Shown piece after piece: positions 16,127-23,289 of a DNA stretch of 33,033 bases. Source of the DNA: Salinivenus sp. (GTDB lineage: Bacteria; Bacteroidota; Rhodothermia; Rhodothermales; Salinibacteraceae); assembly GCA_018609755.1 (NCBI GenBank), contig JAHENZ010000236.1, positions 1 through 33,033 of the forward strand. Reading direction: 5' to 3'. The translations under genes were made by a program, and so were the position numbers. The notes beneath the pieces were generated by a model. That model was not told the DNA's origin and searched no databases. It was given only the letters and a program-made list of their open reading frames with translations. Position 1 is the stretch's first letter. Each line of letters begins with the position of its first letter.

Positions 16127-17351
16127 GTACCGCGTCAGGGGTGATTGTTAACGCCGTAGATCGCATATTGGCAGGCCCCAATCCTTCTGCCTTCTCCGTG
16201 AGCTGTTATGTCCAGAAAGACCTATTGTGTTGAATTGAGCGAATCAGACCGCAAGTGGCTGCTTGAGTTTATTGGCCGCGGCGCCGCTCCGGCCCGTGAG
16301 TAGACCCGAGCCCGCGTTTTGCTGAAGTCGGAAGGGCCAGAGGGACCGGCCTGGTCTGACGAGCGAATCGCAGAGGCCCTCGAACTGTCCGTAGGCGGCA
16401 CCAAGGGCATTCGTCGACGCTTCGCAGAGCGGGGCCTGGAAGGATGCGTCAAACGGAAGAAGCCGGACCGGGAATACGAGCGGTTGCTTGATTGAGAGCA
16501 GGAAGCCCGGCTTGTACAAATAGTTTGCTCTGAGGCCCCAGACGGACAGAGCCATTGGAGCCTTCGTCTCCTTGCAAGCCGACTTGTGGAGCTTGAGATC
16601 GTCGATTCAATCAGCCACGAAACCGTTCGACAGACGCTCAAAAAAACCGACTCAAGTCGCATCGAAGCCGACAATGGGTGATTCCGCCGGAGCAAAACAG
16701 CCGCTTCGTCGCCAAGATGGAAGACGTACTTTCTGTCTATCGGCGGGCCTACGACCCAGATCGGCCCGTGGTCTGCATGAACGAGATGTCTCGCCAACTG
16801 CTCCAGCAGGTGCGTTCTCCGATCGAGATGCGCCGAGGCGCGCCTTACCGAGAGGATCATCATTACCGGCGAAACGGGACTGCCAGCCTCTTTACGCTCT
16901 TCGAGCCGCTGTCGTCTTGGCGGACCGTAACGGCTCGGAGGCGCCGAACGAAGATCGATTGGGCAGAATGCATTCGCAGCCTGCTTGTCGACCACTACCC
17001 GATGGCCGAGACGGTTGTGCTGGTGATGGACAACTTGAACATCCACTGTCTGTCGAGTCTCTACGAGGCGTTCGGTCCGGCGGAGGCACGAGGGCTGGCC
17101 GCGCGTTTGGAAATTCACTACACACCCGAACACGGAAGTTGGCTAAACATCGCGGAAATCGAGCAAAGCGTTCTGGCCCGACAAGCCCTCGGGCGTCGGA
17201 TCCCGACGCTCGCGGCAATGCAGAGAGCCGTGACCGCATGGGCAGAACGTAGGAACCGAAACGGCGCCTCCGTCGATTGGCAGTTCACGACCACTGATGC
17301 CCGCATCAAACTGAAGCGCCTCTACCCAAAGATTGACGACTGACACGGTAC
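16127..17351 (+). mobile_element. IS630-family insertion sequence, decayed
   Basis: The ends GTACCGCGTCAG (16127-16138) and CTGACACGGTAC (17340-17351) are inverted repeats matching at 11 of 12 bases. Each is flanked by TA (16125-16126 and 17352-17353), the target duplication of IS630/Tc1-mariner elements. The 1225-bp unit contains one transposase reading region, which is broken. The right-hand TA is also the left TA of the adjacent MITE. Confidence 0.8.
16208..17343 (+). pseudogene. IS630-family transposase, inactivated
   Basis: The conceptual protein (about 378 residues) starts MSRKTYCVELSESDRKW. The N-terminal helix-turn-helix part is readable only across an in-frame TAG at 16301-16303 and a TGA at 16493-16495. 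A frame change occurs at a run of seven A (16640-16646), after SHETVRQTLKK. The remaining frame reads RQWVIPPEQNSRFVAKMEDV, the mid-region of IS630 transposases. The DDE motif is also damaged: the first Asp, normally in a C-L/M-D-E context, is Asn in VVCMNEMSRQL. VLVMDNLNIH and the Glu in GSWLNIAEIE remain. The A7 run would permit -1 slippage giving KKNR, but the two stops and the lost Asp make this copy non-functional. Confidence 0.85.
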
Positions 17352-17353
17352 TA

Positions 17354-17462
17354 AGTAACTTCAATCATGGAATTGGGCTTTTCTCCGCTAAAAATCGGCT
17401 CTGATAGCCGCTGCGAGCCGTTTTTCTAGACGCCAATCCCCAAGTTTTCGATTGAAGTCACT
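17354..17462. mobile_element. 109-bp MITE with TA target duplication
   Basis: The ends AGTAACTTCAATC (17354-17366) and GATTGAAGTCACT (17450-17462) are inverted repeats with one mismatch. Each is bordered by TA (17352-17353 and 17463-17464). A palindromic centre and TA flanks are typical of non-autonomous IS630/mariner-type MITEs. The terminal sequence differs from that of the neighbouring IS630, so another transposase would have moved it. It sits just upstream of the Wadjet-like operon. Confidence 0.7.
17390..17425. terminator. Terminator-like hairpin in the MITE centre
   Basis: AAAAAT-CGGCTC-N13-GAGCCG-TTTTT gives a 6-bp GC stem followed by five T, with five A on the other side. It could therefore stop transcription in both directions. 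It lies 82 bp before the jetA start and would shield the operon from IS-derived read-through. Confidence 0.55.
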
Positions 17463-17506
17463 TAGGCTCGAATAGCGTTTAAAACACAGCCCATCGTGAA
17501 GCGGAA

Positions 17507-18736
17507 ATGAGCACACCCGACATCAAGGCCTTTTTCCGGCTGGCCCACCAGCACTTCGACGCACTGGAGGCCCTGTTTAACTCGCGGGAGGGAATGCGAG
17601 AAACCGAGCTTCGATCGCGTCTTGACGACGGCTCGCATCACACTGCCTCTTCCGGACACGTCTTCCGGGAACTCCAGGCGCACCGCCTGATCGAGCCCCG
17701 CCCGGAGGAAACCGCCTCGTTTGAGCTCACGCCGCCGGTGCGCGACCTTTTCCGGGAGTTTCGCCGAAAGCAAAAGCTCAGCACGCCGAAGGCCATCCAA
17801 GCCTATCTCGACCGGCTCGAAGAGCTCATGGAGCGACTCGAGGATCGCGTGGAGCAGTCTGCCCGCGCCGGTGTAGGGCGCGTACTTGAGGACATCGATA
17901 CCGAGATCGAAAAGATTCGCACGCTCTCCCGCTCGAACCGAGAGGCGGTTCTAAACCGCGTCACTGAACTCCGGGCCGAGACGCACTCCGATTCTGTTCG
18001 GGAACGCTTCAGAATGATTAACGAGCTTCTGGAGGACTACGTGACGCCCTTGAAGAACATTGTCCAGAATCGAGGAGCATTCGAGACGCTCTTCTCTGAG
18101 CTGAGGGCTGCCTTGAGCGAGGCCCAGACCTCCTTCTCCGACGACGCGCCGATGGTTCGTGCTTTCACGTCAACGAAAGCGCGGCTCCAGCGGGTTCGGC
18201 GAGCGGTGCTCGAAAACTTCGAGGCTGCTCGCCAGGAAACCACCCGGCTCTACGAACAGCACGAGACGAACAGCGACATGCTCGAAGGGGCGTCCTCGCT
18301 CCTCAGCCGGATTCATCACCAGGGCCCGGGTGCATTGAACCTACCCAATGAAATGAAGCTGGCGAGCTTCACGATGCGAACGGTCTTCCAAGACGAGGGC
18401 CTCAGTTCGTATCTGCACGAAATGGTTGGCTACGAGCCCCCCGATCCAGAGCCCATACAGGAACCCTCTTCTTCCCCGGCCCCGCCAGTGCTCGATCGGC
18501 AGGAACTCATTGCAGATGTGCGCCGGGCCTGCCCCATTCCTGATGCGATGGACTGGCTTATCGGTGCCCTGGATGAGAGTGCGCCCCGCCGCACCTTGCG
18601 GGCGTACCGCTACCTCCTGCAAAGCTCCAAGCTCTCGTCCACGTTCCAAGACACAAGGAAGGAATACGACCTCGGGGACACGATGCTGTCGGCTACCCCG
18701 GTTCAGGTGACCGTTGATGAGAACGCCTCATCTTAA
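17507..18736 (+). CDS. jetA: Wadjet/Mks kleisin-like subunit (JetA/MksF-like)
   Basis: A 409-residue, mostly helical protein, the first of four genes in JetABCD order. The N-terminal ~90 residues (FFRLAHQHFDALEALFNSREGMRETELRSRL to TPPVRDLFREF) look like a winged helix. A long charged helical middle follows (about 95-290; EELMERLEDRVEQ, LNRVTELRAETHSD). A Pro-rich linker (PPDPEPIQEPSSSPAPP) leads to a C-terminal helical or winged-helix part. This is the architecture of MukF/JetA kleisins, which bridge the SMC head and neck and bind MukE/JetB dimers. Sequence identity to named families is not obvious, so the call rests on operon position and architecture. The gap to jetB is 56 bp. Confidence 0.7.
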   Translation: MSTPDIKAFFRLAHQHFDALEALFNSREGMRETELRSRLDDGSHHTASSGHVFRELQAHRLIEPRPEETASFELTPPVRDLFREFRRKQKLSTPKAIQAYLDRLEELMERLEDRVEQSARAGVGRVLEDIDTEIEKIRTLSRSNREAVLNRVTELRAETHSDSVRERFRMINELLEDYVTPLKNIVQNRGAFETLFSELRAALSEAQTSFSDDAPMVRAFTSTKARLQRVRRAVLENFEAARQETTRLYEQHETNSDMLEGASSLLSRIHHQGPGALNLPNEMKLASFTMRTVFQDEGLSSYLHEMVGYEPPDPEPIQEPSSSPAPPVLDRQELIADVRRACPIPDAMDWLIGALDESAPRRTLRAYRYLLQSSKLSSTFQDTRKEYDLGDTMLSATPVQVTVDENASS

Positions 18737-18792
18737 GGCCCCAATCTCGCTCGGCCCTACCAGGTCTTTTGTCACTCAAACTACCCGCAGGC

Positions 18793-19446
18793 ATGGACTC
18801 GCTTCCTCATTTGGAATCTATTTTCAACGACCTTCGGCGGGGCTACCACTTCACCCCCGAAGACGGAGAGATCTTCCGCCCCCTATGGAATCGATTCGAC
18901 GAATATAAGCGCCTCTTTAACAGTCTCGGGCTCGACCTACGAAAGCATCCGCAAAACGTGGTCTATTTGGTTGCGAACGACAACGTGCAGCCGGGCAAAC
19001 AGGCACGAAAGATGGGCCTCTTCATGATGGTGCTAATCGAACACTTTGGGGAGACCCATTCGTCGATTGTCCCCTCACTCTTCGACGCGGTATTTCAGGT
19101 TGAGAAACTACCCCACCTGAAAAAGGCCCGCTACGAGGAGTACATGAACGCCATCGGCGTCCACGACGCCAGCGATCTGGAAGGCATCGTGCGATCTCTG
19201 ATTCGCTTCGGTTTTGCAGAAGAGCGCGACAACGGATTCACGTTTCGAAGAGCCACCTACCGGTTTTTGGATCTTTGCCGGGAAGCCTCAACCCTCGGGG
19301 AGAAGGATCCCGACGACGAGAAGGATTCGAGTCCTGGCGGCAAGCCGAGTCCCTCCTCCATAGCCGGCGACTCGGATCTACCCTCAACCAACTTGGAAGA
19401 CGAGCTGCAGTCAGCCGAACCGGAAGAAGGGTCCCCCCGCCCGTAA
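18793..19446 (+). CDS. jetB: Wadjet/Mks MukE-like subunit (JetB/MksE-like)
   Basis: A 217-residue protein between the kleisin-like and SMC genes. FNDLRRGYHFTPEDGEIFRPLWNRFDEYKRLFNSLGLDL and NVVYLVANDN are followed by ARKMGLFMMVLIEHFGE, and then by a winged-helix-like part (SDLEGIVRSLIRFGFAEERDNGFTFRRATYRFLDLCREA). This fits MukE/JetB (DUF4194-type) proteins, which bind kleisin and DNA. The last ~50 residues are acidic and low-complexity. The ATG at 18793 is preferred to a TTG at 18769. The partners are inferred to be the flanking jetA and jetC products. Confidence 0.7.
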   Translation: MDSLPHLESIFNDLRRGYHFTPEDGEIFRPLWNRFDEYKRLFNSLGLDLRKHPQNVVYLVANDNVQPGKQARKMGLFMMVLIEHFGETHSSIVPSLFDAVFQVEKLPHLKKARYEEYMNAIGVHDASDLEGIVRSLIRFGFAEERDNGFTFRRATYRFLDLCREASTLGEKDPDDEKDSSPGGKPSPSSIAGDSDLPSTNLEDELQSAEPEEGSPRP

Positions 19447-19543
19447 GACCCGCCCGCCTTCCCTGAGTCCCCCAGTGGAGGAATCCGGAGAAAGACCTAC
19501 GCCGGACGGTTCCATACGCTTTTTTGTACATTTCCCTCTCTCA

Positions 19544-22360
19544 ATGCCCACGACCGGACCGACACGACTCATTTTCATCGGCGCGGCAAAGTTCAGCTAT
19601 GCCGAGGTGGACCTCACAACGCCCCTCCATCTCGTAGGACCCAACAACGTCGGCAAGACGACACTGGTGAACATCCTCCAGCTTCTCTACATCGATAAGC
19701 AGAGTCACATGTCGTTTCCCGGATACAGCTGGCGGGAGACAAAGGCGTATTACTTTCCTGATCGCAGGAGCTACGTGCTCTTCGAGTGCATGACGCCAGA
19801 GGGGTTGCAGGTGATTGGGGCCTACGGGAAAGGTCCTGCGGAGGGACACGACATTCAGCGGTTTGCGTTCTCGGGTGGGTTCGAAACGGAGGACTTTTTC
19901 GACTCTACCGAGGAGGGCCCAGTGCCGCGAGAGGTAGAAACGGTCAAGCAAACGCTCAGCCTGAAGAAGTTCAGGAAACTGGAGGTGCGAAATCTTCGAG
20001 CAGCCCTTACAGGCATCGGAGAAAGTGACGGACTCAACCTGGGGCTCATTCCAGTGCGAGACCACAACGGATACTCGAAATTCCGAGAGCTCTTCAAGGG
20101 TCTTATCCGACTCCGCCAGCTCGACCAGAGCGCATTGAAAAACACGCTCTGTAGCACCTACGCCTCGGAGGTGGAAGCCTTGGAGGTAAACCTGAAGGAG
20201 GCTCACGCCGAGGAGTTCGAAACGTTGCAGCAACACCGGAAGGACATTGAGGATCTAGAGCGCTTCGAGCCCGACATCGAGGAGGCCCTGCGTGCTGCAC
20301 AACAACAATCTACGCTCCGCCGCCAGCTGGCAGAGACGTGGATTCAACTCCTTCAGGCTCAGAGCCGACTCAGAATCCATATTCGAGGAGCCAGGGAGAG
20401 GCTTCAACGCCAGATCCAGGAGACGGAATCTGCGCTTCATAAGCATCAAAAGCGAAAACAATCACTTGAAGAGAAGCGGGACAAGCTAAACCGCACTCTC
20501 GGCCGTCTGGAGGGGGAAAAAGAAGAGCTCACCGATCTCATCGATCAGGTTTCCGGCTTTGACCCAGAGGAGGCCGACTCCCGGATCGACGAGCTCGAAA
20601 ACAAGCGGTCGCAAATTCTGGCCGATATCAAGTCGGTAGATGCCGATGCCCCCGAGCAGATCCGGAAGCGGCGCGACCGGGTCGGAAAAACGATTCAGCG
20701 ACTCCAGAAGCGACTGAATGGGATTCAAGACCTCTTGGGGCCGCTTCTGAAAAAGCGTCTTGGGAAGGTGCGCCTGCAGCGCCTGTTCCAGATTCTAAAC
20801 CCGTGCCTTCTGGATCTAAACGCGGGTGGAGAGGACATCGTATTGAGCGATCTAGATGAGCTTCTTCAAAGCATCAAGAGTCAGGACAACCGGTTCGAGG
20901 AGGGTCAATGGCACTTCCCGGGCGGGCACGTCTCCCTAGAGGCCCTCCCAGAGCCCGATCTGGCCGACTACATGGATCCAGATCGTATCCGGGAGAAGCT
21001 CAACCAGCGCCGCAGGGAGCATGAGCGGCTCGACCATCGCTTAGAAGTTGCACAGGACGTGAGTTCAAAGAAGGAAGAGGCCGAAAAGATCGGCCGGCGC
21101 GTCGAGCAGATTCGAGCGAAGCTGAACAAATATGAGAAGGCCGTAGAGGCTGAGGAAAAGCTCCAGTCGGTCCGTTCCAAAATGGCTGATCAAAAGGACG
21201 AGTTGGAGGCTACGAAAGAAACCCTGGTTGACGAGGAGTCGAAAACTCAGCGCCTGAAGCAAGAGCGTCGTAAGCGCCGTTCTCAGCTCACGCGTTTGAA
21301 GGAGGAGGCCGAGATGCTCGATGAGCGAATCGAAGCGCTTCGTTCGCCTCCCTCAGCGTGGACCCTGCACCTGACGGTCGCCGCCGGCAAGGACACCGAT
21401 TCACAGGCAGATCAGTCTCCAGTTCTCACGCCGAGTGGCGCGCAGGAGACTGAGGAACTCATTTTGCCGCTTCTCGACCGATATGAGGAGGCGAAGGACA
21501 AGGAATCTCGAACGTCCAGTAGGCTCGAAAACATCCTGGGTCGTATTCACGAGGGGACGTACGAGGAATACAAACAAAACACGAGGAAGGAAACCCTCGA
21601 TGAGCTCCGCAATGAAAAGGAGGGACTTCCGGCTCGACGCCGCACGCTCGAAACGCTGTGGGAGGAACTTATGACCGGACTCGGTCGGAAAATCAACGAC
21701 CTCCTCTCGAGTCTTGAAGCCATACAGAGCGTCGTCGACCGGATCAACCGGCGGCTTCGAGGCACGTCCGTTTCGGATTTGGAACGCCTTCGGCTGGAGG
21801 TTACCCCAATCAAGCCGACGGTGGATCTCCTGGAGCGGTTTGCAGAGCAGGACGCAATGCCGCTCTTCAGTAGAGAGGGGAGGCGTGAGGAAGATTTTGG
21901 TCAGCTCCGGTCGCTTTTCCAGGACCACCCTCGGATCCATCTCACAGATCTTTTCAATGTTGGGTTTGCGGTCACGACGGCCGATGGGGAAACCGAACGA
22001 TATGATGGTCTCGACAACATCCAGTCGAATGGCACGTCGATCACCATCAAGGTGCTCGTCCACCTGGTTCTTATCGGCGACCTGCTTCGAGACGATGATC
22101 TAAGGCTTCCGTTTTACCTCGATGAGGCGTCGAGCCTGGACGAAAGCAACCTGGCGGGAATTGTCCGAGCTGCCACAAACATGGGATTTGTGCCCGTCCT
22201 TGCGAGCCCCACCGAGTCGACAGCCGTTCCGCATCTCTACTACCTGCAATCCGAGGGGGAGCGGATGTACCTTGGCCCGGAGCACCGGGTCGAACTTCGA
22301 AAGAAGGAGAGCCGTCCAAATAGAGGACCTCACGGGCTTACGTCCAACGCGCAGTCGTAG
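19544..22360 (+). CDS. jetC: Wadjet/Mks SMC-like ATPase (JetC/MksB-like)
   Basis: A 938-residue SMC/RecN-type ATPase. The Walker A motif is GPNNVGKTT at residues 32-40. A very long charged coiled coil runs from about 215 to 720, with a central low-charge region near 405-480 that would be the hinge. The ABC signature region appears as SNGTSITIKV (828-837) instead of a classical SGGE. Walker B is LPFYLDEAS with Asp860-Glu861. This head-coil-hinge-coil-head order identifies an SMC protein; the neighbours make it JetC/MksB. Known Wadjet JetC proteins extrude DNA loops using ATP. The ATG at 19544 gives the family-like start before RLIFIGAAKFSYAEVDL; a GTG at 19475 would add 23 residues with no family features. 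Confidence 0.85.
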   Translation: MPTTGPTRLIFIGAAKFSYAEVDLTTPLHLVGPNNVGKTTLVNILQLLYIDKQSHMSFPGYSWRETKAYYFPDRRSYVLFECMTPEGLQVIGAYGKGPAEGHDIQRFAFSGGFETEDFFDSTEEGPVPREVETVKQTLSLKKFRKLEVRNLRAALTGIGESDGLNLGLIPVRDHNGYSKFRELFKGLIRLRQLDQSALKNTLCSTYASEVEALEVNLKEAHAEEFETLQQHRKDIEDLERFEPDIEEALRAAQQQSTLRRQLAETWIQLLQAQSRLRIHIRGARERLQRQIQETESALHKHQKRKQSLEEKRDKLNRTLGRLEGEKEELTDLIDQVSGFDPEEADSRIDELENKRSQILADIKSVDADAPEQIRKRRDRVGKTIQRLQKRLNGIQDLLGPLLKKRLGKVRLQRLFQILNPCLLDLNAGGEDIVLSDLDELLQSIKSQDNRFEEGQWHFPGGHVSLEALPEPDLADYMDPDRIREKLNQRRREHERLDHRLEVAQDVSSKKEEAEKIGRRVEQIRAKLNKYEKAVEAEEKLQSVRSKMADQKDELEATKETLVDEESKTQRLKQERRKRRSQLTRLKEEAEMLDERIEALRSPPSAWTLHLTVAAGKDTDSQADQSPVLTPSGAQETEELILPLLDRYEEAKDKESRTSSRLENILGRIHEGTYEEYKQNTRKETLDELRNEKEGLPARRRTLETLWEELMTGLGRKINDLLSSLEAIQSVVDRINRRLRGTSVSDLERLRLEVTPIKPTVDLLERFAEQDAMPLFSREGRREEDFGQLRSLFQDHPRIHLTDLFNVGFAVTTADGETERYDGLDNIQSNGTSITIKVLVHLVLIGDLLRDDDLRLPFYLDEASSLDESNLAGIVRAATNMGFVPVLASPTESTAVPHLYYLQSEGERMYLGPEHRVELRKKESRPNRGPHGLTSNAQS

Positions 22361-22422
22361 CATCGAAGACAGTCCAATTCAAGTTCTCCCGGCCCCCTTT
22401 TCTGCGCAAACGAACTGTCGCG

Positions 22423-23289
22423 ATGGCAGACGGATTGATCAACACACTGATTCAGCTTCTCGAGAAAGGAAGTGTCCCCTGGAGCAGCGTAAGTGACCGG
22501 CAACGCGATCGGCTCCGATCACTTCGGGAAACCGGTGTGCTAACGGTAGAGCGATCCAGAGGAGGCCGGCGCCTCGTCGTTCAGAATAGGGGGGTGGTTC
22601 AGCGGTTTGCTGAAAGAGAGTATCCGGCAGGGCTCGATGCTGCTCGAGAGGCAGACGAGGAAGAACGCCTTCCAGCCTCCGAAGCCGCGCTGCATTTCCG
22701 TGATGCCAAAAGAGGATCGGCCGGAAGCGAAGTGCTTTTGTTTCGAGGAACGCCCGGCACCGAGATTATCTGCAATGGCACGCCGCTTCCGATCGGGAAG
22801 TTGACACGAACAGCCGGGGTGGGGGCAGCGCTTCTTGCTTCAGACACCACGATCGTGATCGAGAACACCCTGGCGGTTGTCGAGAACCAGGAGGCCTTTT
22901 TCCGATTTGACGAACTGGACACGACGGCGGAGCTGGCATGCTTTGCGGGTGGGCGCCTCTCCAATCGAACGCTAGAATGGCTTGGCTCGCTTGACGTAGG
23001 TCCCGGTCAAATCATCCACTGTCCCGACTACGATCCAGTAGGGTTGAGTGAATTTCAGCGTATTCGGAGTGCTTGTGGGAAAGGAGCCCAACTGTTTTGG
23101 CCCGATCAGCTGGCGGCACTGATTCAGAAATACGGGAAAGCCGACCTCTACAAAGATAGCTCCGAGCTTCTTGACGGCCTCACGGACGCCTCGCAGCCCC
23201 AAACCCAAAAGCTTCTCGCTCTCTTGCAACGATATGGACAGGGACTTGAGCAGGAGATTCTCTTGAGCGACTGCTCACCACCTGAATGA
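22423..23289 (+). CDS. jetD: Wadjet/Mks TOPRIM nuclease (JetD/MksG-like)
   Basis: A 288-residue protein closing the four-gene operon. The first ~65 residues (LINTLIQLLEKGSVPWSSVS, GRRLVVQNRGVVQRF) look like a winged helix. The rest carries a TOPRIM fold with IVIENTLAVVENQEAFF (Glu147) and IIHCPDYDPVGLSEFQRI (Asp202, Asp204), the acidic metal-binding set of DUF2220/topoisomerase VI A-like nucleases. In characterised Wadjet systems JetD cleaves the plasmid trapped by the SMC motor. It is roughly 100 residues shorter than many described JetD/MksG proteins, apparently lacking an N-terminal arm region. The gap to jetC is 62 bp and the strand is the same. Confidence 0.82.
   Translation: MADGLINTLIQLLEKGSVPWSSVSDRQRDRLRSLRETGVLTVERSRGGRRLVVQNRGVVQRFAEREYPAGLDAAREADEEERLPASEAALHFRDAKRGSAGSEVLLFRGTPGTEIICNGTPLPIGKLTRTAGVGAALLASDTTIVIENTLAVVENQEAFFRFDELDTTAELACFAGGRLSNRTLEWLGSLDVGPGQIIHCPDYDPVGLSEFQRIRSACGKGAQLFWPDQLAALIQKYGKADLYKDSSELLDGLTDASQPQTQKLLALLQRYGQGLEQEILLSDCSPPE

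Follow-up and report, generated by a model that had tools for sequence, protein, structure and literature searches.

Does an operon with the gene order of the anti-plasmid system Wadjet defend a salt-loving bacterium against foreign DNA, or does it encode a second machine for organising the chromosome? The question arises from four same-strand genes in a stretch of 33,033 bp, called the window below, which is one whole contig (G000:C236) of a 5.0-Mb genome in 328 contigs with 4.96% contamination. A first-pass annotation had read them as a possibly divergent Wadjet-like operon. The interest of the locus lies in its pairing of subunits resembling the condensin MksBEF with a nuclease: common annotation does not flag nuclease-bearing operons with MksBEF-like subunits, and the family in the window combines both.

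Gene content and conservation of the operon

The features on which the analysis rests are listed in Table 1. Measured from homologue-supported ATG starts, the intergenic gaps are 56, 97 and 62 bp, matching the spacing of 56-97 bp first given for the four genes. The proposed succession of kleisin, MukE-like protein, SMC and TOPRIM protein, as in Wadjet, also recurred: the kleisin-KITE-SMC-nuclease order is kept in all complete related loci, which span three phyla as well as plasmids. Compared with one copy from a Salinibacter plasmid and one from Salinivenus, each gene had a dN/dS of roughly 0.09-0.23 with zero stops, and selection on all four is purifying. Because no complete related locus departs from this arrangement of orthologues and the genes evolve under this constraint, the operon is not a product of chance; it is real and conserved and, judging from these sequences, probably functional.

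Table 1 Coordinates of the operon and its motifs in the window.
Feature	Position	Strand	Basis or remark
Four-gene operon	17507-23289	+	all ORFs intact, co-directional
Gene 1, kleisin (MksF/JetA-like), 409 aa	17507..18736	+	NF040857 match and AlphaFold2 model like MukF
Gene 2, KITE subunit (MksE/JetB-like), 217 aa from ATG 18793	18793..19446	+	ORF opens at TTG 18769
Gene 3, SMC ATPase (MksB/JetC-like), 938 aa from ATG 19544	19544..22360	+	ORF opens at GTG 19475
Walker A GPNNVGKTT, SMC residues 32-40	19637..19663	+	sequence; GPNN.GKT invariant in 21 sequences
ABC signature-like motif SNGTS in ESNGTSITIKVL	22025..22039	+	sequence; S828, G830 and T831 invariant
Walker B PFYLDEA (FYLDEA, residues 857-862)	22109..22129	+	sequence; Y858, L859, D860 and E861 invariant
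Gene 4, minimal TOPRIM nuclease (MksG/JetD-like), 288 aa	22423..23289	+	winged helix ~2-81, TOPRIM ~100-284
E154, predicted metal ligand (VEN motif)	22882..22884	+	invariant in 19 sequences; pairs with JetD type I IEN glutamate
D202-Y203-D204, TOPRIM DxD	23026..23034	+	invariant; pairs with JetD type I DxD
LEQE (275-278)	23245..23256	+	invariant in 19 sequences; pairs with LEQE of JetD type I

Gene 1 matched NCBIfam NF040857, a 412-position model of an Mks subunit, over residues 15-394 (3e-12). The best structural matches of its AlphaFold2 model (pLDDT 71.7) were MukF (3rpu, Z 14.9, rmsd 9.6, 253 aligned), above the helical-bundle background; the Wadjet-II JetA 9qe0 appeared further down the list (Z 11.2). 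The rmsd is large, probably owing to different domain placement; the case for likeness to MukF rests more on the layout over the full length, the MukF-type match 9gm7_C covering residues 1-398 of the model. By sequence, the gene 1 profile found no MukF or JetA match. The first-pass annotation had named a kleisin, and a model lacking that fold would have counted against it; the modelled fold is that of a MukF-like kleisin. It had also called the first two proteins weakly recognisable, which does not hold for gene 2: this protein matched Pfam MksE (PF21980) at 1.1e-21 and NCBIfam NF040858 at 9.9e-21, and its family profile reached the MukE structure 7nyw at 2.4e-6, in agreement with the MukE-like assignment.

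Gene 3 matched NCBIfam NF040859, a 926-position model of an Mks SMC, at 3.3e-56 over residues 28-912 of the open reading frame. The Walker A and Walker B motifs picked out at first sight are both present and essentially invariant across the 21 sequences that we compared, and the motif SNGTS in ESNGTSITIKVL is, from its position, the putative ABC signature. Two other kinds of coiled-coil ATPase were considered and rejected. RecN/Rad50-type proteins, whose presence would have spoken against the original SMC assignment, are out, as Rad50/SMC models match the coiled coil only, against a full-length match to the Mks model; Lamassu (LmuB) gave coiled-coil scores only. A gene 3 profile yielded no JetC match by sequence among PDB chains at E up to 0.1. 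The sequence composition indicates short arms and a central non-coiled segment, a small hinge, of ~80-100 residues. Hinges without a channel have been linked with long arms (PMC12647877), so that a channel, or none, in the hinge of a short-armed SMC would be informative, and we treat the predicted combination of small hinge and short arms as a lead.

Gene 4 matched DUF7281 (2.5e-5), PADLOC JetD1 (4.9e-5) and JetD_C (0.0056). Its AlphaFold2 model (pLDDT 83.9) resembled Corynebacterium glutamicum MksG (8b7f, Z 13.1, rmsd 2.8, 153 aligned), topoisomerase VI-A (1d3y, Z 12.8) and Pseudomonas aeruginosa JetD (7til, Z 11.8), with all matches limited to the TOPRIM half of the protein. A single winged helix takes the place of the long N-terminal part of JetD, of which ~100 residues are missing. 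In an alignment with the JetD-I profile the EN glutamate, the DxD and LEQE paired in order; this alignment is weak (E 0.0015), so the homology is carried by the fold match, and a gene 4 profile found no JetD match by sequence among PDB chains at E up to 1. On the same alignment, LEQE would answer to the glutamate pair that has been discussed for JetD/MksG. In MksG the equivalents of these three motifs are the metal-binding E236/D279 and the E349/E351 pair (PMC10123090). The DYD motif first noticed in this protein is the DxD itself, essentially invariant in the family.

Placement among Wadjet, MksBEF and MukBEF

The operon has the gene content of the broad Mks/Wadjet group and a nuclease with the MksG/JetD-type TOPRIM fold, including the glutamate, the DxD and the C-terminal glutamates. 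Within that group it stands apart from type I. With a canonical type I operon as positive control (L113), PADLOC Jet models scored 766, 365, 1523 and 589 bits, against at most 33 bits for the four proteins of the window. Genes 1-3 had no match to JetA1 (DUF3375) or JetB1 (DUF4194), and JetC1 gave coiled-coil scores only. Compared as profiles, the SMC proteins of the family scored 696 with the plasmid members from proteobacteria, 55 with JetC-I and 48 with MukB. Trees of SMC head domains split it from JetC-I and MukB with support of 100/99 in the first and 100/100 in the second, from which the Phocaeicola sequence described below was left out as a rogue long branch and in which JetC-I lay on one side of a 98/98 branch; a nuclease tree split the gene 4 family from JetD-I at 100/100. 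These trees are unrooted with long branches and thus show separateness, not sister relations. From these comparisons we judge that the operon is not Wadjet type I, and the phylogeny called for at the outset, as far as it concerns type I, agrees with the suspicion of a divergent member of the group. It shares with type I (JetABCD; C. glutamicum MksBEFG) the gene order, subunit classes, TOPRIM fold and E/DxD/LEQE residues, but its SMC (~938 against ~1130 residues), kleisin (~409 against ~485) and nuclease (288 against ~390, with a single winged helix) are all shorter.

The named models closest to the kleisin, KITE and SMC proteins, which match them over most of their length, are NF040857, NF040858 and NF040859; by our own reading these would represent the P. 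aeruginosa MksBEF complex. The initial naming as JetABCD/MksFEBG stands for the kleisin-KITE-SMC-TOPRIM operon, with the correction that the named models nearest to its first three subunits are those of the MksBEF condensin and not JetA, JetB and JetC. Short coiled-coil arms are a further feature common to the SMC of the window and MksB (PMC4255302). On the other side, the matches, though long, reach only 46 of 750, 74 of 400 and 191 of 1900 bits of the NCBIfam equivalog cut-offs for MksBEF, and every complete locus of the family carries a TOPRIM nuclease gene. Two of these models seem to carry labels at odds with the literature: NF040857, kleisin-sized with 412 positions, goes by 'MksB', and NF040859, the SMC model of 926 positions, by 'MksF'.

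Escherichia coli MukBEF shares the MukF-like kleisin fold, MukE homology and a distant similarity of the SMC head. The window operon differs in carrying a nuclease, in a much shorter-armed SMC (938 against 1486 residues) and in its separate tree branch, and so is not the nuclease-free operon with a long-armed MukB that defines MukBEF. Wadjet types II and III have the same subunit classes, and a type II JetA was in the gene 1 fold list; compared through sequence models only, JetC2/JetC3 and TIGR02680 gave coiled-coil-level matches and DUF3584 a sub-threshold one. The JetC2 model hit none of 198 genomes and the JetC3 model one, at a locus without Jet-like neighbours by size. Searching plasmids with JetD-I gave operons of type I appearance wherever the locus was classifiable.

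Recent literature still recognises three Wadjet types (PMC12647877). A 2025 survey built profiles iteratively for all of the Wadjet group, across 254,733 bacterial genomes, with size filters into which operons of the window type fit (PMC7617805); the branch may therefore already be catalogued there, though unnamed. We conclude that the operon probably belongs to a rare and unannotated branch of the Wadjet/MksBEFG plasmid-defence group, which may be kin to the nuclease-free, chromosome-folding MksBEF. P. aeruginosa MksBEF has been suggested to derive from JetABCD by loss of the nuclease (review, PMC10586767). A bolder proposal, which we hold only tentatively and consider on balance doubtful, is that the family is a further Wadjet type beyond I-III, with a short-armed MksBEF-like motor and a minimal JetD, and the nuclease-bearing sister or ancestral state of MksBEF. 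If true, it would be direct evidence that a housekeeping condensin arose from a disarmed immune system. For testing how extrusion triggers cutting, the family is also attractive in that its nuclease is small and tractable and its SMC motors are the shortest among those compared.

Distribution, probable function and alternatives

The distribution of the operon is patchy and rare. A GTDB-wide scan returned 22 loci in records of Salinibacteraceae, Desulfobacterota/Deltaproteobacteria and Elusimicrobiota, mostly MAGs. The nuclease gene was retained at every locus long enough to show it; among the incomplete loci, L019, L020 and L034 break off inside the SMC gene or shortly beyond it, and L036 is fragmented. 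Carriers made up 3 of 12 congeners, 1 of 14 other family members, none of 33 order members and about 4 of 297 genomes in the Desulfobacterota-type phylum. Plasmid-borne copies were found on Salinibacter ruber pSR76, in Halioglobus, Polaromonas and Neptuniibacter and on two Pseudomonas megaplasmids, a handful among 72,556 plasmid records. In annotated plasmid records the family bears the label 'hypothetical protein', and the PADLOC defence models that we used miss it.

Neighbours of the relatives include ResIII helicase, HsdM, Fic and AbiEi genes, given here as a list of neighbours and not as an enrichment; for plasmid copies the list adds a WYL regulator and ABC-three-component genes. Around the window copy we recognised an IS630-like transposase and metabolic genes, with no defence gene among these neighbours. 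The transposase ORF (DDE_3; 16678-17343) ends ~160 bp before gene 1. Congeners offered no syntenic empty site for comparison, as their counterparts of the flanking gamma-glutamyltransferase were only ~43% identical.

By analogy with characterised complexes, we put at about 0.7 the probability that the operon encodes an Mks-type Wadjet system acting on foreign circular DNA by extrusion and cleavage. In type I, it is the completed extrusion of a DNA circle that activates JetD (PMC10586767, PMC12647877). The same extrude-and-cut cycle is the most economical account here, given the retained ATPase motifs, the MukF-like kleisin, the KITE protein and the TOPRIM residues. Homology suggests that SMC, kleisin and KITE would assemble into an ATP-driven loop extruder, which would load on DNA and reel in a loop. 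If the biochemistry of JetABCD/MksBEFG applies, extrusion would be completed on a small circle, and the stalled complex would open or position a TOPRIM nuclease dimer, in which E154 and D202/D204 would hold the metal ions for cleavage of both strands. In this way the cell would rid itself of incoming plasmids or other foreign DNA circles. The N-terminal part of JetD is proposed to hold an autoinhibited state; because the nuclease of the window does without this long part, its autoinhibition and docking probably differ from those of type I. A defensive role is supported by the accessory distribution, the retention of the host's ScpA, the defence-gene neighbours in relatives and the plasmid copies; counterpoints are the faint response of the PADLOC Wadjet models, the metabolic surroundings of the window copy and the shortened nuclease N-terminus.

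The plasmid copies and the transposase beside the window copy would also fit a weapon of mobile elements, in which the operon is mainly cargo of plasmids or islands, removes competing replicons and possibly acts on phage DNA too. We consider this unlikely: most sampled copies lie on contigs that are not callable as plasmids, plasmid carriers are as scarce as stated above, and two scans of viral contigs found no relative of the operon. Its molecular activity would in any case be identical to that of the Mks-type Wadjet system, and only the beneficiary would differ.

The similarity of all three SMC-complex subunits, and of the SMC proteins of relatives, to the NCBIfam Mks condensin models raises a different explanation, namely that the operon encodes a further condensin for organising the chromosome, as in P. 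aeruginosa MksBEF, with the TOPRIM protein as a regulated helper on chromosomal DNA instead of a weapon. ScpA is present in the genome of the window and in every other family member tested, so that in this family the operon comes on top of ScpA. In four carriers sampled from the Desulfobacterota side (G424, G425, G426 and G565) ScpA gave no hit, which keeps the condensin explanation alive; however, 81 of the 297 genomes of that phylum have no ScpA hit and few carry the operon, so the absence looks like lineage background. With a patchy distribution, occurrence on plasmids and strictly conserved nuclease motifs also against it, we rate a condensin role as rather improbable. A non-functional remnant or assembly artefact, to which the fragmented and slightly contaminated assembly and the confinement of the window to a single contig might point, is very hard to credit given four intact reading frames under purifying selection and closest relatives in the same genus and on the complete S. 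ruber plasmid.

Several related loci have features of their own. In three Salinibacteraceae loci (L011, L012 and L013) a ResIII/helicase gene of ~585 aa follows the nuclease gene on the same strand; this gene was not seen in the window. On S. ruber pSR76 (L068) the annotated SMC coding sequence begins at 17676, past the Walker A motif near 17505, and that of the nuclease at 20554, losing most of the winged helix; both reading frames remain open further upstream, spanning 17415-20315 and 20374-21249. One locus (L095:5329-6011, G661) has ~680 bp between the SMC and nuclease genes, against the tight spacing elsewhere. The operon on a Phocaeicola plasmid (OY725996.1, 4360-9450; L073) is of another kind: beside a KITE-like gene it encodes an SMC of 1215 aa and a TOPRIM protein with the motif DFDIAG. 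Its branch is very long in both trees, and it may stand for yet another Mks-like group.
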